Shown in pieces: positions 19,474-28,572 of a stretch of 64,000 nt of DNA. This stretch comes from Archaeoglobus profundus DSM 5631 (GTDB taxonomy: Archaea > Halobacteriota > Archaeoglobi > Archaeoglobales > Archaeoglobaceae), in contig NC_013741.1 of the NCBI RefSeq assembly GCF_000025285.1, positions 1,054,001 through 1,118,000 of the forward strand. The letters are read 5' to 3'. Each line of letters begins with the position of its first letter. Within the stretch, counting starts at the first letter, position 1. The position numbers were made by a program, and so were the translations under genes. Under the pieces are notes generated by a model, which had not been told where the DNA came from, ran no database searches, and worked only from the letters and a program-made list of their open reading frames with translations.

Positions 19474-20739
19474 TTAAATAGCTTCCCAGAAGTATTTGGG
19501 CACATTCTTTGGATATCTATCCCTCGTCCAAGCGTAGATCATCGCTACAGTTCTGTAGAGCATGTGTGCAAACTTTGAGTATGGTGCATAAACCAGGAGC
19601 ATGAAAACGAAGTACAGGTGTATCAAGTAGAGCCAGTATGCTGCTGTGCTTTCAAAGAGTCTTGCAATGGCAACACAGTACCCCGTAATACCGACCAATA
19701 GAACGACGAGCAGGAAGAACCAGTCGTAATAGCTTCCAAGCTCCTTGCTCCTCTTGTTGAACAGTCTGTTCCATATCGCAACCGCGCTACCCACGATCAC
19801 AGCTATTCCACCGAGCAAACCTACAAGCTTGAAGAGAGCCATGATTGCATACGCAGCATCGAACTCTTTCATGGACAGTATCTCCCATGGCCACGGTGGT
19901 GGATACACAAGCTTAACTGGGAGCTCGACACCGACAACTTCTCCAATTCCTATGACGTCACCTGCTGCAGCTAAAGCCAGACCTATGAATCCATAGAATA
20001 TCAGCAGGTGTGCCGGAAAACGGGGCTTGTTTGCATCACAAGCCTTGAACCAGTTGTGGTAGAGAATATCCCTAAGAACGAAGAAGAACGCTTCGAAGAA
20101 GTACAGTCCCATAAATCCACTTTTGCCCTTGATTTCAACTTCGGCGTTCTCAAGCGGTTTCACCGTGTACTCCATTCCTCCCCCATCGGTTATAGCTAGC
20201 CAATATCTCCACATTCCGATGAGGCCTATCAGGAGGGCGAGACCACCGAGAACGAACCCAGCTATTTCTACATTCTCAATTGGCAGGAGCTTGCTCGTCT
20301 CAACTGCTCCACTCGGCAAAGCACCCGTGAATATACCGGGGTTTGCCCAAGCGATCAGAGCACCTAAGATTATCGCTGGGACTATTATCACGAATATCGG
20401 AAATCCCCAAGGCTGGTTAAGTATCTTACCGATGAACTTTGGCCAAGCATATTCGGATATTACCCTAGCTCTAATCGCATTCAAAACCTGTCCGGGTTTA
20501 GCATCTCTGGGACAATATGCAGAACAGTCAGCACAGTTGTAGCAGAGCCATACATTTGGATCCTTCAAGAGCCTCTTCCTGAGCCCCCACTGAGCCCAGA
20601 TCATCTCCTTTCTTGGGAATGGATCGTCTTCGGGGCTTAGAGGACACACGACGCTACAGTTAGCACACTGCATACACTTTTTGAGGTCTTTACCGCCCAG
20701 AGCTATAATTTCACGAGCAAATTTCGGATCGACCTCCAT
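19474..20739 (-). CDS. qmoC: QmoC, membrane subunit of quinone-interacting oxidoreductase
   Basis: The 421-residue protein joins an HdrC-like iron-sulfur domain (C-x2-C-x2-C-x3-CP in KKCMQCANCSVVCP near residue 22, and CYNCADCSAYCP near 66) to an HdrE-like cytochrome b domain with about six membrane helices from residue 115 onward. In the Qmo complex it is the membrane anchor thought to exchange electrons with menaquinone. The start at 20739 has GGGAGGTGGTG upstream; a start six codons earlier is unlikely. It is the last gene of qmoABC. Confidence 0.93.
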   Translation of the reverse strand: MEVDPKFAREIIALGGKDLKKCMQCANCSVVCPLSPEDDPFPRKEMIWAQWGLRKRLLKDPNVWLCYNCADCSAYCPRDAKPGQVLNAIRARVISEYAWPKFIGKILNQPWGFPIFVIIVPAIILGALIAWANPGIFTGALPSGAVETSKLLPIENVEIAGFVLGGLALLIGLIGMWRYWLAITDGGGMEYTVKPLENAEVEIKGKSGFMGLYFFEAFFFVLRDILYHNWFKACDANKPRFPAHLLIFYGFIGLALAAAGDVIGIGEVVGVELPVKLVYPPPWPWEILSMKEFDAAYAIMALFKLVGLLGGIAVIVGSAVAIWNRLFNKRSKELGSYYDWFFLLVVLLVGITGYCVAIARLFESTAAYWLYLIHLYFVFMLLVYAPYSKFAHMLYRTVAMIYAWTRDRYPKNVPKYFWEAI

Positions 20740-20768
20740 AACACCACCTCCCAACAAAAATTAAAGGG

Positions 20769-22991
20769 TTAGAATCCCTTGTATGGGTTGGGGCCAATTT
20801 TCTGAATCTCCTCAACAAAGCTGTTTATGATTTCAGGAATCTTTGGCCAGTCTGATATCTCGACCTGAACGATTTTAACCCTCTCTGGCTCTATGAACAG
20901 TCTGTTCAAAGTTTCTTTCACGTTCTCCATTCTCCTATTAGCCAATTCGGAACCTCTTATAAAGTGACACTGGTAGTCCTCTCCAAACTTACATCCAAGC
21001 ATCAATACTCCATCGATACCCTTTGACATTGCATCCGCTATGAAGACTACGTTCACGGAACCAAGGCATCTTACTGGAATTATTCTTACCAAAGGACTGA
21101 ATTTGAGTCCGTTCTTAGCAGCCATGTCTATCGCTGGATATGCATCGTTCTCACAAGCAAACACGAGTATTCTCAGCTTACCCTCTTCAGATGGTACTGA
21201 GATCGACTTTATCATCGACGAAATCATGTCAACGCTGTACTGCTTGAAGGATATGATCTTCTCAGGACATGCACCGAAGCAGATTCCACATCTCCTACAT
21301 CTGAGCGGGTTCGGCTGTGGTGTTCCCTTCTCGTCCTCATCCAAAGCTCCAAATGGACATTCCTCTGTACACCTCTTACACTGCGTACATCTCTGCAGGA
21401 AGAAGTTCGGATAGTCGATATCTCCAGTCCTTGGGAATATCGTAGCACCCTTCGCAACCAACTCGACAGTTTGGATTGCCTTTAGAGCGGCACCTCTTGC
21501 ATCCAACTCGCAGTCCCTTATAGTCATAGGTGCTCTAACACACCCAGCTGGATAGATACCTGTTCTCCTGCTCTCATACGGGAAGCAGATGTAATGTGAA
21601 TCGGGGAATGCGTATTTGAGAGTTGGTAGCTCTGGACCCTGTCTATACTGCAGGTTCAAAATCCACTCCTTACCTCTGTTCTCAAATGCAACTTCCTTAG
21701 GAACTGCTGGCTTTATGTGAGAATACGGTGGTTCGCCTTCATCTGGATACTCCTCCTTGACTGTGTACAATCCGTACATCGATGAGAGCATTCCAGTTAC
21801 AAGAACAACCATGTCTACATCAACCGTTATATCCTCACCCAACAGCGTGTTTGTAACTTCAACTCTCAGCTTGTCTCCGTTTTGTGTTATGCTCTTCACT
21901 TCACCCTTAGTTAAGAATATCCCCTCATCCTGCTGAGCTTGTTTGTAGAATTCTTCGTAGATTCCGACTGTTCTTAAATCCTTATAGAAGACGAAAACAT
22001 TTGCATCCTTGTTCATCTCTCTAATGCACAAAGCCTGCTTTAGAGAAGTAAGGCAACATACAGTTGAACAGTACGGTATGTGCTCGGGATCTCTCTGACC
22101 AGCACAGAGTATGAACGCAACGTCCTTCACAGCTTTTCCATCAACTTCAAGCTTACCTTCCTTGATCATCTGCTCAAGCTCGATATTTGTAACAACTCCC
22201 GGTAAGCCGTAGCCCAAGTTTGATAGTTTTGTAGGATCGTACGGCTTCCATCCAGTCGCAACGACGATTGCTCCGACCTTAAAGACTTCCTCATTACCCT
22301 CTCTATCTACAACAACATTGAACATTCCCGGCTGTCCTGAGATTGACTTTATCTTGGTTGATGTGTATACAGTTATGTTTTCGTTGTTCATGACCTCGTT
22401 TATCTTTTCGTTGATGTAAGATTCTGCATCGACTGGCTCTCTGTACGGGAACTTACCCGGCAGAATCTTCTTGAATTTCCTGACCCATCCACCCAATTCG
22501 CTTTCTTTCTCGACCAAGTATACCTTGTAACCAGCCTTAGCACACTCCAGTGCAGCCGTTAATCCCGTTACTCCTCCTCCAACCACGAGTATATCCTTTG
22601 AAGTTTCTTCCAAGTAAGGCTCTGGCAACTCTGTCTTCTGAGCTTGGACTATACCCATTCTGACGTAATCCTCAGCCAACTCCTGTGCGTGCTCATCGAT
22701 ATCGTGACTCCAGACAACATCTTCTCTAAGGTTTACTCTGACCGTTATAATGTCCTTACCGAAGTTAAATACATCCTGCTTAACTCTTGGAGAACATCCA
22801 CAGATTACAACAGCGTTAACACCATTCTTTATGTCTTCTTTGATCATTTCAACGCCTTCTCTACTGCAGAGGGCTTTGTGAACCTTAGGGGTGATCTTGA
22901 ACTCGTTTTCGACAACGCCTTTAATTTTCTCTATGTCCAGCTGATCTATACCACAGCCCGTACAAATGTAAACACCAACATTTTTCTCCAT
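20769..22991 (-). CDS. qmoB: QmoB, HdrA/MvhD-like flavin and iron-sulfur subunit
   Basis: The 740-residue protein has an HdrA-like N-terminal part with an FAD-binding ILVVGGGVTGLTAALE near residue 129, an STVCCLTSLKQAL segment near 315, two 4Fe-4S motifs (CTQCKRCTEECP and CRRCGICFGACP near 545-585), and a C-terminal MvhD-like domain (LRILVFACENDAYPA near 618, CLGSVN and GCKFGEDYQCH). It is a soluble subunit of QmoABC, which links quinone oxidation to AprBA. It lies 5 bases after qmoA and 29 bases before qmoC. Confidence 0.95.
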   Translation of the reverse strand: MEKNVGVYICTGCGIDQLDIEKIKGVVENEFKITPKVHKALCSREGVEMIKEDIKNGVNAVVICGCSPRVKQDVFNFGKDIITVRVNLREDVVWSHDIDEHAQELAEDYVRMGIVQAQKTELPEPYLEETSKDILVVGGGVTGLTAALECAKAGYKVYLVEKESELGGWVRKFKKILPGKFPYREPVDAESYINEKINEVMNNENITVYTSTKIKSISGQPGMFNVVVDREGNEEVFKVGAIVVATGWKPYDPTKLSNLGYGLPGVVTNIELEQMIKEGKLEVDGKAVKDVAFILCAGQRDPEHIPYCSTVCCLTSLKQALCIREMNKDANVFVFYKDLRTVGIYEEFYKQAQQDEGIFLTKGEVKSITQNGDKLRVEVTNTLLGEDITVDVDMVVLVTGMLSSMYGLYTVKEEYPDEGEPPYSHIKPAVPKEVAFENRGKEWILNLQYRQGPELPTLKYAFPDSHYICFPYESRRTGIYPAGCVRAPMTIRDCELDARGAALKAIQTVELVAKGATIFPRTGDIDYPNFFLQRCTQCKRCTEECPFGALDEDEKGTPQPNPLRCRRCGICFGACPEKIISFKQYSVDMISSMIKSISVPSEEGKLRILVFACENDAYPAIDMAAKNGLKFSPLVRIIPVRCLGSVNVVFIADAMSKGIDGVLMLGCKFGEDYQCHFIRGSELANRRMENVKETLNRLFIEPERVKIVQVEISDWPKIPEIINSFVEEIQKIGPNPYKGF

Positions 22992-22996
22992 TTAAA

Positions 22997-24223
22997 TCAC
23001 CCCCTAACCACTTGAATAGCTCTTATAACCGCTCCAGTAGCGTCTCTATTGCTTGAGGCTACGTCAGCTGGCATTCTCGCTACACCACAGGGAATTATTC
23101 CCTCCTTCTCTACTACAAATCCGTAATCGTCGTATTCCAGTCCCTCAATCTTCTCAACAGCTGTTGTCGGTTGCATTCCAGTTGCCAATACAAGCAACTC
23201 TACTTCCATCTGAACCTTCTTGCCAGTTTCTGTATCTTCAGCGTGAACTATGACATTCCCATTCTCTCCCTCCTCAACCTTTGCAACCTTACCCCTAATG
23301 AATACGATGTTTTCATCCTGATCAACCTTCTGGAAGAAGTCCTCGTATCTTCCGTAAGCTCTCCTGTCTATGTAGAAGATGTAAACCTTTGAATCTGGGA
23401 TTTGCTCTCTTACATACAGAGCGTGCTTCATCGTTGCCAAACAGCAAACTGCAGAGCAATACGGCAGATGATTCTCATCTCTTGAACCGGCACACTGGGC
23501 GAAAGCTACGATCTTGGGCTCTTTTCCATCGGAAGGTCTAACGATCTTACCCTTTGTTGGCCCACTTGGAGAAGCCAACCTTTCCATCATCATGTTTGTT
23601 ATTACGTTTGGATACTTGCCAAATCCTAACGTTTCAAGCTTGGTGGCATCGTAAGGATTCCAGCCGGTTGCAACGATTATCACCTTGGCGTTTATAGTCA
23701 ATTCCTGAGGTTGTTCATCCAAGTTTATCGCATCGTATTTGCAAACCTTAACGCATTCTCCACACTTGTTGCAAACATCTGGATCAATCACGTAGATTGG
23801 TGGAAAAGCCATGTCATGCGGTAAGTATATCGCCTTTGTCTTGTCCATTCCGAAGTCGAAGTCGTTTGGTCTCTCAACAGGACAAACCTTTTCGCATTCT
23901 CCACAAGCGGTACAGTTCTCGTTTACAAATCTCGGTCTTACCTCAACGAATACGTTGAAGTTCCCTGCAACACCTTCAACTTTCTTTACCTTTGCATTTG
24001 TAATCACTTGTAAGTTCTCGCAGTTCTTTAGCCTCTTGAGGAAAATCTCAAGACCGCAGTAGGGTGGGCACATCTTTGGGAAGTACTTGGTAAGCTGAGT
24101 AACTCTCCCACCCAAGTAGGGGTTTTTCTCAACGAGTGCAACACTGTACCCTGTTTCTGCTGCTTCAACTGCTGCTGTTAAGCCAGAAATACCACCGCCG
24201 ATAACCAAGATATCGACGTTCAT
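22997..24223 (-). CDS. qmoA: QmoA, HdrA-like flavoprotein subunit
   Basis: The 408-residue protein starts with an FAD-binding fold (ILVIGGGISGLTAAVEAAE) and carries two ferredoxin-type cysteine groups (CTACGECEKVCP near 105, CNKCGECVKVC near 150) and the CSAVCCLATMKHAL segment near 255, all typical of QmoA/HdrA. It is thought to contact AprBA and QmoB. The ATG at 24223 with an AGAGGGAT ribosome site begins exactly at the flavin fold; the open frame extends 35 codons further but includes the promoter. Confidence 0.95.
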   Translation of the reverse strand: MNVDILVIGGGISGLTAAVEAAETGYSVALVEKNPYLGGRVTQLTKYFPKMCPPYCGLEIFLKRLKNCENLQVITNAKVKKVEGVAGNFNVFVEVRPRFVNENCTACGECEKVCPVERPNDFDFGMDKTKAIYLPHDMAFPPIYVIDPDVCNKCGECVKVCKYDAINLDEQPQELTINAKVIIVATGWNPYDATKLETLGFGKYPNVITNMMMERLASPSGPTKGKIVRPSDGKEPKIVAFAQCAGSRDENHLPYCSAVCCLATMKHALYVREQIPDSKVYIFYIDRRAYGRYEDFFQKVDQDENIVFIRGKVAKVEEGENGNVIVHAEDTETGKKVQMEVELLVLATGMQPTTAVEKIEGLEYDDYGFVVEKEGIIPCGVARMPADVASSNRDATGAVIRAIQVVRG

Positions 24224-24346: not shown

Positions 24347-26287
24347 TTAGAGCTGCCAGTCGACTATCTGTATGTATGGTACCTTCTGCATCTCCCACTC
24401 GCCGGTCTCTGGGTTCTTCCTGCCGACAACGAAGACTTTCCAGTTCTCGTCGTCGATGTCTGGGTAGTCCATTCTGTAGTAGTAGCCGGGCCATCTTGTC
24501 TCCTGTCTGAAGAGCATGTGCTGTACGTGTGCCTCTGCAACGATGACTCTGTGCCACATCTCCCAGCACCTCATGAGCTCGTGCAAGTTCCTAGCAGCGA
24601 GCTTCTCCATGTCCTCCTTGAGCATCTGCAATCTCTCGAGAGCAATCTTAAGCATCTTCTCGTTAGTTCTGTACCACATTGAAGCTCCAGCTGCATATTC
24701 GTCCATGATCTTCTGGAGTCTCCAGAGTGCCTGCTTCGGGAACAGGTAGTTCGGGTTAATGTCTTCTCTCGTTGAAGCGTTCTTGAACTGTTCGTATGTA
24801 ACCATCGGCTGGAAGATCTTCTTCTTCAACTCCTGCACCTTAGCCTCGTCGATCTCTGGGTTCGGGTTCTGCTCGACCACGTACCTTACGGCAGCCTTAC
24901 CTGCGATTCTACCCTCGGTGAACGAACCGCTTGAGAACTTGTGCGGGTTAGCACCACTGCAGTCTCCAACTGCGAACAATCCCTTGATTGTTGTCATTCT
25001 GTTGTAGCAGAACGGGAAGAGCTTCTTGTACTCCTCTGGCATTAGGTCCTCTGGACCGCATACCCACAGACCTGCACAACCTGAGTGTGAACCCATCATG
25101 TATGGCTCAGCGGTCATGATCTCTGATGGCACCTTCTCAGGCTCGATGTTCAGAGCAGCCCAGAGCAATGCCTGTGACACTGTCATGTCAAGGAAGTCTT
25201 CCCAAGCCTCCTCGATGAGCTTCTTGAGATCCTTACCCTCTTCCTGCAACTTCTTGATAGCCCACTCCGTTCTCATGAGGATTGGTCCCCTACCGTTGAT
25301 GAGCTCCTCAAGCATCTGGTGGTTTCTTAGTGGTGTCGGGGTTGGGACGGCATCAGCGTATGGCTTGTACTTCTCGATTGTCTCCTTCTTCTCGATGTAT
25401 ACTTCATCGAATGCGTTCGTAGCTACCGACTTGAAGAGCAGGAACCATGCACCGACTGGACCGTAACCGTCCTTGAATCTCGATGGAATGAATCTGTGCT
25501 CCATCTGGCATGTGTGAGCTCCAGCCTCGATAGCCATTGCATAACCGCTTCCAGTGTTGAACACTGCATACCAGATTCTACCCATACCTTCTCCGGTGCT
25601 TCTTGGTCTGAAGAGCAGTGTAGCACCACCAGTCGCGAGGATTACGGCCTTAGCCTTGAAGATGTAGAACTTCGGCTCTCTCACGCTGAAACCGACTGCA
25701 CCAGCAACCCTCTGTGGGTCGTTCTTGTCCATTAGTAAGTGTGTTATGAATACTCTCTCGTAGATGTTCTCCTCACCCAAAGCCATCTTTGCAGCCTCTG
25801 CAATAATCGGCTTGTATGACTCACCGTGGATCATGACTTGCCATCTACCCTCTCTCACATACTTGCCGTTCTCGTCCTTCCAGATCGGCAGTCCCCACTT
25901 CTCGAAGAGGTGTACTGTTCCATCAACATGTCTTGCATAGTCGGCGACCAAGTCCTCTCTTGCGATACCCATCATGTCGAGTGTTACGTATCTTACGTAG
26001 TCCTCAATTGTGTTTGGCTTGTCGCCGACTTGCTGAGCTCTGCCTGACAGACCGAGGTAGGTGTTTATAGCAGATAGACCCTGAGCTACAGCACCACTCC
26101 TCTCAATTGCTGCTTTCTCTACGAGTGTTACTTTCAAGCCAGCCGCTTTAGCCCAGTAGGCTGCTTCGTAGGCTGCACCACAGCCAGAGAAACCACCACC
26201 GATGATCAATATGTCTGTCTCTACAGTCACATCCTGTACATCCTCTGGCTTGTACGTCTCTATATTCTTATATACCTCAACCGCCAT
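24347..26287 (-). CDS. aprA: Adenylylsulfate (APS) reductase alpha subunit
   Basis: The 646-residue flavoprotein is dissimilatory AprA, which reduces adenylylsulfate to sulfite and AMP. It shows the FAD-binding DILIIGGGFSGCGAAYEAA near residue 25, RSGAVAQGLSAIN near 63, VILATGGATLLFRPRSTGEGMG near 215, and the RWPGYYYR-type C-terminal segment near 606. Its length agrees with the A. fulgidus enzyme (slightly over 640). Codon choice is strongly biased (TAC, TTC, GAG, CTC preferred), as expected for a highly expressed gene. It follows aprB by 26 bases. Confidence 0.97.
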   Translation of the reverse strand: MAVEVYKNIETYKPEDVQDVTVETDILIIGGGFSGCGAAYEAAYWAKAAGLKVTLVEKAAIERSGAVAQGLSAINTYLGLSGRAQQVGDKPNTIEDYVRYVTLDMMGIAREDLVADYARHVDGTVHLFEKWGLPIWKDENGKYVREGRWQVMIHGESYKPIIAEAAKMALGEENIYERVFITHLLMDKNDPQRVAGAVGFSVREPKFYIFKAKAVILATGGATLLFRPRSTGEGMGRIWYAVFNTGSGYAMAIEAGAHTCQMEHRFIPSRFKDGYGPVGAWFLLFKSVATNAFDEVYIEKKETIEKYKPYADAVPTPTPLRNHQMLEELINGRGPILMRTEWAIKKLQEEGKDLKKLIEEAWEDFLDMTVSQALLWAALNIEPEKVPSEIMTAEPYMMGSHSGCAGLWVCGPEDLMPEEYKKLFPFCYNRMTTIKGLFAVGDCSGANPHKFSSGSFTEGRIAGKAAVRYVVEQNPNPEIDEAKVQELKKKIFQPMVTYEQFKNASTREDINPNYLFPKQALWRLQKIMDEYAAGASMWYRTNEKMLKIALERLQMLKEDMEKLAARNLHELMRCWEMWHRVIVAEAHVQHMLFRQETRWPGYYYRMDYPDIDDENWKVFVVGRKNPETGEWEMQKVPYIQIVDWQL

Positions 26288-26313: not shown

Positions 26314-26766
26314 TTATGCCTTCTTCTTAACCTCAGGCAACTTGTCCAAGTCCAAAATCTGAGGCTCTCCCGCAAGAAGCTCGTTCTTCAAGTTGTCCAA
26401 GCTTGGCTCTGGGAAACCCTCGAATGGCTGAATTGAGCCCCATGGGGTCGTTCTTATCGGGAACTTGAATCTCAAAATCTTACCGTTTCTGAACTTGATT
26501 GTCCACATGATTGCATCGGTACCTCTCATTGGTACACACTGTGCCCCGAGGGGCACGAAGTCTACGTAACCTCTCATGTCAATAGCACCCTGTGGGCAGA
26601 TCTTCACACAGCTGTAGCACTCCCAGCACATGTCTGGCTCCTGGTTGTACGCTTTCATCTTCTCCTTGTCCAAAACCATCAAGTCGTTGGGGCAGATGTA
26701 CTGGCATGCTGTTCTCTCTAAAGCCTTACATCCGTCACACTTGTCTGGATTTACGTAACTTGGCAT
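26314..26766 (-). CDS. aprB: APS reductase beta subunit, ferredoxin-like
   Basis: The 150-residue protein carries two 4Fe-4S motifs: an unusual first group (CDGCKALERTACQYICP, residues 9-25) with the long AprB spacing, and a regular CWECYSCVKICP (47-58). A C-terminal tail after residue 105 wraps around AprA in known structures. It passes electrons to the AprA flavin. A GGAGGTGGGTT ribosome site precedes the ATG. It lies between ORF2 and aprA, in the sat operon. Confidence 0.97.
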   Translation of the reverse strand: MPSYVNPDKCDGCKALERTACQYICPNDLMVLDKEKMKAYNQEPDMCWECYSCVKICPQGAIDMRGYVDFVPLGAQCVPMRGTDAIMWTIKFRNGKILRFKFPIRTTPWGSIQPFEGFPEPSLDNLKNELLAGEPQILDLDKLPEVKKKA

Positions 26767-26843
26767 TCAACCCACCTCCAAAACTTTCAAATTTCAAATT
26801 CTTCGACCCTCCCTAACGGAAAAAATTTAAAAGCTTTACTATT

Positions 26844-27191
26844 TTATTCAATCTCCGGTGGCGGTATGTATTCCTCTTCCTTCTTCGCAAGCTCCTGAAT
26901 CTCTGGTAATCTCTCAAGAACCTTGTCTATGACGTCCAACGATTTGGCTTTTGCGATCTCTTCGAACAAAGCTCTCTTGAAAGCCACTGGTAGGTCTTCG
27001 ATGAACCCTCTCGAGTCGATTCTTGCTCTGTCGAAGGCTTTGAGTATTTGCTGTGACTTATCCTCAGGTACTTCGACCACTAGCATTTTCAGAGCTCCGC
27101 CGAAGATGTACTGGATTTTCTCCTCAAGCGGTGTTCCCTTTATCTGCTCGTACCTCTTATCGTCCAGAATAATACCTATGTAGTGAACCAT
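26844..27191 (-). CDS. ORF2 of the sat-apr operon, function unknown
   Basis: A 115-residue soluble protein lies between sat and aprB; a gene in this position is known from the A. fulgidus sat-apr operon. The ATG at 27191 has a GAGGTGGTTGGA ribosome site and lies 10 bases after the sat stop; a longer frame to 27242 would run back into sat. The N-terminal half looks alpha/beta (MVHYIGIILDDKRYEQ, then MLVVEVPEDKSQQILKAFDRA), the rest helical with an acidic proline end. It has no cysteines and no known catalytic motif. A role in Sat or Apr assembly or control is inference from position. Confidence 0.85.
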   Translation of the reverse strand: MVHYIGIILDDKRYEQIKGTPLEEKIQYIFGGALKMLVVEVPEDKSQQILKAFDRARIDSRGFIEDLPVAFKRALFEEIAKAKSLDVIDKVLERLPEIQELAKKEEEYIPPPEIE

Positions 27192-27201
27192 TCCAACCAC
27201 C

Positions 27202-28572
27202 TCACGCCTTAGGAATCTCCATCGGCTCCAAATCAATCTCAAGCTCCTTGTTTATGTACTCCAAGTACTTGTTGTTCACGAACGGATAGTTGAAGACCTT
27301 CCACCACTTGACTATCGCCTTGTAAACCTCTGGTCTCATCACGACCTTTGGAGGCATGACACCCTCGGCAACCATACCTCTTAAGAATGATCCGCTGAAC
27401 TTCTGCTTTGCATCCGTGTGTCCACAGTTCTCGCTGTAGGCTATTTCTCCACAGATCGGACAGTACCAGAATTCGGCCATGTTCTGTGGAATGATCTTCA
27501 AACCGTAGTCAACCTCGTTTGGTGGAGCCTCAAAGCCAAAGCTTGGAATACCCTCACTCCACAGTATTTGGGTGGCGAACTTATCGTAGTATTCACCCAC
27601 TGCTGCGTGGTCTCTACCGAACATGTGGTGCGTACAACCCATGTTTTGCCTTATTATACCGTGCAGTAGCGATTCGATTGGGTTACCGTATCTCATATCC
27701 CAAAGCGTGAATGTTACCATGTGCCTCGACGGCTTGATGTATCCGTACTTGTTAACAGCTTCGTGACCCTCGAGGATTGCCTCGTTCGGGTAGTCTCCCT
27801 TCCTCTTAGCTCCGATGATTGCGTTTACCAATATACCGTGGCATGGCTCGATGTCACCCGTGTAAGCGGCACACTTCATCAGCATCTCGTGGCCGGTGTG
27901 AGGGACGTTTCTCGTCTGGTGGGCGATGACGGTTCTCCACTTCTTCTCATTCTTGATAACTTCCCTACACTTTCTCGGTGGGAACCAGAATCTGTCATAC
28001 GGCTCTCTGAACTTTGGCGGGTTAATTATCGTCCATTTACCAGCGATTACGTTTGGATGCATGCATCTGTATATCATCCAACCCGGATGCTTCTCATCAA
28101 ATGGCTGTCTTACGACCTCTGGGTTATTCTCTGGTGTTCCGAATGTCCTCGTCGCCACATCCTTAGGATCGATCTTGTAGATCTCCTCAACATCCATTAT
28201 GGCAAATGGCTGACCCTTGAGCTTGAGCAAGAGCCTATCTCCTTCGCTAACGTTCAAAGCTTTCAAATCTTCATCGCTTATGTCGAACAGAATTGGGTAC
28301 GGGAACACCCACTCGTTCTCAAGCCTTCTCTCCTTCAAAACCCTTTCCAAGTCACCAGATGTCATCGAACCCTCTACCGGGCTGAAGAAGCCGTAGCAGA
28401 CCGAGATTATCTCTCTGTAGACGTGCCTTATTGGGACACCCTTCGGATCGGTTGTTGGCTTGAGTTCGTATTCAATGGCACCAGCAGCCATTTTCTCAGC
28501 AACATCTCTCTTTTCTACGACTCTTTCTACCAACCTGCCACCGTGCGGTGGAGGCATCTTAAACTTCGGCAT
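27202..28572 (-). CDS. sat: Dissimilatory ATP sulfurylase
   Basis: The 456-residue protein is a homo-oligomeric ATP sulfurylase that makes adenylylsulfate and pyrophosphate from ATP and sulfate, the activation step of sulfate respiration. It shows the QTRNVPHTGHE catalytic motif near residue 222 (Q-x-RN-x-PH-x-GHE), the GAKRKGDYPNEAI segment near 257, MFGRDHAAVGEYYDKFA near 323, and a cysteine pair group CPICGEIAYSENCGH near 374 that may bind zinc. AAAGGAGGTGAAC precedes the ATG. It is the first gene of the sat-ORF2-aprB-aprA transcript. Confidence 0.97.
   Translation of the reverse strand: MPKFKMPPPHGGRLVERVVEKRDVAEKMAAGAIEYELKPTTDPKGVPIRHVYREIISVCYGFFSPVEGSMTSGDLERVLKERRLENEWVFPYPILFDISDEDLKALNVSEGDRLLLKLKGQPFAIMDVEEIYKIDPKDVATRTFGTPENNPEVVRQPFDEKHPGWMIYRCMHPNVIAGKWTIINPPKFREPYDRFWFPPRKCREVIKNEKKWRTVIAHQTRNVPHTGHEMLMKCAAYTGDIEPCHGILVNAIIGAKRKGDYPNEAILEGHEAVNKYGYIKPSRHMVTFTLWDMRYGNPIESLLHGIIRQNMGCTHHMFGRDHAAVGEYYDKFATQILWSEGIPSFGFEAPPNEVDYGLKIIPQNMAEFWYCPICGEIAYSENCGHTDAKQKFSGSFLRGMVAEGVMPPKVVMRPEVYKAIVKWWKVFNYPFVNNKYLEYINKELEIDLEPMEIPKA

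Follow-up and report, generated by a model that had tools for sequence, protein, structure and literature searches.

Gene organization in the window

The window, a stretch of 64,000 nucleotides of the Archaeoglobus profundus DSM 5631 genome, carries on its minus strand the gene order sat, ORF2, aprB, and aprA, followed by qmoA-, qmoB-, and qmoC-like genes. ATP sulfurylase (Sat; 456 aa) is encoded at positions 27202..28572 (PF01747, E = 9e-67; NF003166, E = 3.7e-149) and is placed by a tree in the Sat clade that carries DUF6955. The codons of its last 27 residues (27205..27285) specify a C-terminal extension (PFVNNKYLEYINKELEIDLEPMEIPKA) of the kind found in linked Sats and absent from unlinked Sats. 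The beta and alpha subunits of adenylylsulfate (APS) reductase are encoded by aprB (26314..26766; TIGR02060, E = 7.9e-74) and aprA (24347..26287; TIGR02061, E = 0), respectively. The qmo-like genes 3' of aprA (19474..24223) were named by resemblance, with order and domains in agreement.

ORF2 (26844..27191, minus strand) starts with ATG and encodes a protein of 115 aa ending in the tail EYIPPPEIE. The gap between sat, which ends at 27202, and ORF2 is 10 bases long (27192..27201), and a Shine-Dalgarno-like, ribosome-binding-like GAGGTGGTT overlaps the sat stop codon. An initial sequence-only reading had taken ORF2 for a real gene, with a ribosome site and a 10-base gap, that encodes no cysteine; both points were confirmed, there being no cysteine in the translated frame. 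The gap between ORF2 and aprB is 77 bases (26767..26843) and includes an A/T-rich TTTTAAATTTTTT element immediately 3' of ORF2. This element recurs among Archaeoglobaceae relatives and could be either aprBA's own promoter or a terminator.

ORF2 matches DUF6955 (PF22271), a Pfam entry carrying no function, over positions 1 to 91 of the 91 in the profile (E = 2.3e-33; 114.7 bits, cutoff 27). Given this match and relatives in 32 of 55 Archaeoglobaceae genomes and several bacterial phyla, ORF2 is not a chance open reading frame. It is a type I (long subtype) member, present as a single copy in the source genome (1,563,423 bases, two contigs). An NCBIfam search with ORF2 gave zero matches, and a PDB sequence search gave no credible relative. 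HflX_C (13.6 bits, cutoff 26.4) and DbpA RNA-binding (13.5 bits, cutoff 25.6) domains were dropped, and a weak centrin match (below the cutoff or with E of >0.1) was discarded.

The similar gene noted between sat and aprB in A. fulgidus is supported: the accessible text of PMC3949148 names a “Sat-ORF2-AprAB operon” in this species and describes sat and apr genes as highly expressed. A function for ORF2 was not found in the accessible parts of PMC2211403, PMC10504309, PMC10322725, PMC3779200, PMC8359953, PMC8551704, and PMC4911364. A literature search on DUF6955, PF22271, and sat-ORF2, with subscription journals mostly outside its scope, returned no reported function.

Structure and conserved residues

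ORF2 was modeled by AlphaFold2 with a mean pLDDT of 92.2 and a pTM of 0.83, the final dozen or so residues being less certain. Fold searches of the PDB with this model gave nothing clear (best E of 1.2 with Foldseek; best Z of 2.6 with VIA-align), and no function is therefore drawn from the fold; such weak matches do not prove a new fold. Near-invariant residues in types I and II are R13, G32, A56, R/K57, D59, and P68, yet the alignment of these types contains no invariant Cys or His, a pattern more in line with a binding protein than with an enzyme. Type III proteins do not retain R13 and R/K57.

Distribution of DUF6955

Within the Archaeoglobaceae, where the 32 DUF6955-bearing genomes were identified by profile search, aprA was above the cutoff in 29 of 55 genomes and sat in 44 of 55. 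All 29 aprA genomes carry DUF6955, the remaining three DUF6955 genomes have aprA fragments, and sat was found in all 32. An aprA fragment without DUF6955 occurs in one genome (G201, 72% complete), and 12 genomes have sat without either DUF6955 or aprA above the cutoff. Because of this codistribution, the Archaeoglobaceae alone do not show whether DUF6955 is partnered with Sat or with Apr.

A scan of species genomes identified 26 loci in Thermoplasmata, Bacillota, Nitrospirota, Chloroflexota, Mycobacterium, relatives of Desulfobacterota, and others, with sat directly upstream in 26 of 26 and aprB in the locus in 13. Profile searches detected DUF6955 in 67 of 345 genomes of the Desulfobacterota (phylum of G239), 24 of 295 and 2 of 191 genomes of the phyla of G223 and G233, 23 of 113 genomes of the class of G221, and 2 of 251 genomes of the family of G225. 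Sulfolobus acidocaldarius, a named control genome, was also matched. At least 197 of the 345 Desulfobacterota genomes have a Sat match, so that most Sat enzymes occur without DUF6955.

Gene neighborhood

Pooling of all loci gave 167 distinct DUF6955 places, 151 of types I and II and 16 of type III, with one match under the cutoff (G986, 22.9 bits) left out. Type I proteins are long with a proline-rich tail and type II proteins are short; the two types were counted jointly because their separation by regular expression assigns some rows wrongly (L303 and L311 in the census and L001 in the tree). A same-strand sat ends directly upstream in 148 of the 151 type I/II places, and the other three (L099, L127, and L176) lie ≤68 bases before a contig end. 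On the other side, aprB is found within 1.2 kb downstream in 92 of the 148 places and is missing in 51 of the 142 places with ≥700 bases downstream. DUF6955 follows sat at a median distance of 15 nt (n = 148), and aprB follows DUF6955 at a median distance of 102 nt (n = 92). A 558-codon open frame in L125 was rejected as a Sat-DUF6955 fusion, since sat is read in a different frame and the start codon of DUF6955 is an internal ATG.

The APS kinase gene (cysC) precedes sat in six loci (L058 to L061, L063, and L068). True AprA was not found in the genomes of five of these (L058, L060, L061, L063, and L068, from Mycobacterium and Chloroflexota), whose best aprA matches, at about 2e-7 to 2e-8, are far under the cutoff. 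Thus, the APS consumer beside the pair varies and Sat is constant, as cysC takes the place of aprBA in some loci and sat is retained. The Chloroflexota clusters L063 and L068 contain APS kinase, sat, and DUF6955, with an adjoining sulfotransferase gene in L068 (order: sulfotransferase, APS kinase, sat, DUF6955), and point to production of a sulfated product.

The description of ORF2 as locked between sat and aprB therefore holds within the Archaeoglobaceae, but family-wide the sat side alone is fixed. The suggested survey of co-occurrence recovered homologues without apr, in the 51 places and five genomes above, and the gene is not restricted to an association with AprBA; type I/II genes without an adjacent sat were seen only at contig ends.

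Type III genes behave differently. The 16 places (L156 to L166 and L168 to L172), all in Desulfobacterota, include none with an adjacent sat, and the five type III genomes inspected encode Sats of the unlinked clade, from which it follows that the family has some use beyond Sat pairing. Genes for dsrA-like and TPR proteins lie downstream of type III in L156, L160, and L165, and a YcaO gene lies beside that of L169, with L171 similar by eye.

Phylogeny of the linked Sat clade

For the Sat tree, 152 linked Sats and 109 unlinked Sats among the matches listed (261 in total) were thinned to 53 and 76 representatives (129); the unlinked Sats came from Desulfobacterota and Archaeoglobaceae only, and G834, G897, G990, and G1012 were left out. 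The Sat profile was built from linked Sat only and its scores are therefore biased, but the tree is independent of those scores. One branch (support of 100, length of 1.21) parts the 53 linked from the 76 unlinked representatives. Six genomes (G909, G942, G967, G991, G1096, and G1114) contain two Sat types each, and DUF6955 adjoins only the Sat of the linked clade; three others (G238, G855, and G916) contain two pairs each, with every sat accompanied by its own DUF6955.

The motif PF[VC]xxxY[LV] is present near the C terminus of 117 of 129 linked Sats, with PFNxxxYL in the other 12, and of none of the 109 unlinked Sats among the matches listed; having been picked after the linked Sats were read, it describes the clade and does not test it. 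The Sat of the window was modeled well, and its C-terminal extension was predicted to be ordered, as helix and strand, even with no partner present, which counts against the reading of ORF2 as a Sat partner.

The Mycobacterium pairs (L058 to L061, L100, and L101) group in the Sat tree with that of a Thermoplasmata archaeon (L052), next to Archaeoglobaceae type II pairs, and this grouping suggests that they were transferred from archaea.

Parallel divergence and pair replacement

Pairwise distances were compared over 52 loci with all four genes, those of AprA being taken from partial stretches of ≥120 residues. The correlation coefficients of DUF6955 distances are 0.964 with Sat distances, 0.495 with AprB distances, and 0.449 with AprA distances. 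The partial correlation between DUF6955 and Sat is 0.952 with AprB fixed, and that between DUF6955 and AprB is 0.057 with Sat fixed.

Two genomes of one Archaeoglobaceae genus, G069 and G203, share 95% identity in AprB and 88% in AprA, compared with 44% in Sat and 28% in DUF6955. In G069, G204, and G205, type II sat and DUF6955 lie upstream of Archaeoglobaceae-like aprBA. Judged by these identities, sat and DUF6955 have been swapped as a pair upstream of nearly unchanged aprBA. The genome of G069 (L019/L022) is closed, at 1,901,943 bases; a type II pair took over the place of sat and DUF6955 there, and aprBA stayed. Joint transfer of neighbors could explain some of the parallel divergence and of the pair replacement, but aprB is also close by and did not follow sat and DUF6955.

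Proposed role of ORF2

ORF2 is best read as a dedicated auxiliary subunit, or else a regulator, of the enzymes of one Sat clade, and is probably an overlooked partner of the sulfate-activating enzyme. Comparison of the genomes demonstrates gene pairing, clade restriction, parallel divergence, and pair replacement for DUF6955 and Sat, and we infer from the sequences that ORF2 binds Sat physically; its binding site on Sat and a regulatory or stabilizing effect are conjecture. ORF2 and Sat would probably be translated from one message, and ORF2 would most likely be bound to Sat as a small, noncatalytic subunit, with contact perhaps made via the C-terminal extension of the partner Sat clade. Bound ORF2 might then stabilize the Sat oligomer or tune the release of APS and pyrophosphate. 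The data indicate that ORF2 most likely serves Sat, and its role may lie in Sat assembly, stability, or regulation. We hold it reasonably probable that the enzyme to which ORF2 is dedicated as an accessory protein is Sat and not APS reductase.

The specific role that had been expected of a gene conserved in this operon has good support with respect to sulfate activation, but not for its aprBA half. Sat-Apr channeling of adenylylsulfate, which had been put forward as such a role, is unlikely as a general function. A protein that hands APS from Sat to AprBA, or that assembles AprBA, would fit the Archaeoglobaceae, where aprBA follows and aprA matches occur in all 32 DUF6955 genomes (29 plus 3 fragmentary), as well as the 92 of 148 places with aprB downstream; we nevertheless consider it very improbable, as aprB is missing from 51 of 142 places, true AprA was not found in five pair-bearing genomes, the partial correlation with AprB is only 0.06 with Sat fixed, and the pair was swapped upstream of retained aprBA.

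The main rival to a lasting Sat subunit is a chaperone that helps Sat to fold or assemble and is absent from the finished enzyme. The same pairing data, the small size, and a gene right after sat would suit a chaperone, but A. fulgidus Sat produced alone in Escherichia coli is reportedly active (in which case DUF6955 would be dispensable for catalysis), and the strongly conserved tail and few charged residues would also suit lasting contact, so that a chaperone appears rather unlikely. ORF2 could instead have a separate job in sulfur metabolism, e.g., metabolite sensing, and merely share the sat message. Type III genes, which lack sat and in some genomes lie near a dsrA or YcaO gene, are in keeping with such a job, to which we assign a low probability: linkage is confined to one Sat clade and retained where cysC replaces aprBA, and two pairs stay distinct within one genome. 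An accessory role for Sat remains the preferred reading. A broader proposal, which we advance tentatively and regard as doubtful in its full extent, is that DUF6955 is the missing regulatory subunit of ATP sulfurylase in archaeal and bacterial sulfate reducers and in mycobacteria and Chloroflexota that pair it with APS kinase, defining a two-component Sat class, with the type III paralogue perhaps having taken on a different step of sulfur metabolism.

Biological sulfate reduction, which accounts for a major step of the global sulfur cycle, starts with Sat. The enzyme is usually regarded as a self-sufficient homo-oligomer. If ORF2 is a Sat partner, the way in which sulfate activation is regulated or stabilized has been overlooked in one of the main Sat clades, and an uncharacterized Pfam family gains a concrete and easily tested partner.

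Comparison with known systems

The gene order of the A. fulgidus Sat-ORF2-AprAB operon is the same as that of the window, and the accessible text of PMC3949148 gives ORF2 no role or partner. The PF22271 entry matches ORF2 from end to end, with no function attached. The C-terminal allosteric domain of fungal ATP sulfurylase is fused to the enzyme and APS kinase-like. If the proposal holds, this domain and DUF6955 would both be regulators on the C-terminal side of Sat, although DUF6955 is a separate protein with no clear structural match. CysD and CysN, the latter a GTPase, are not known to be related in sequence to Sat or DUF6955. The proposed Sat-DUF6955 arrangement would nonetheless resemble the CysDN ATP sulfurylase, in which the enzyme works with a second protein, CysN, described as regulatory in the accessible text of PMC10322725.
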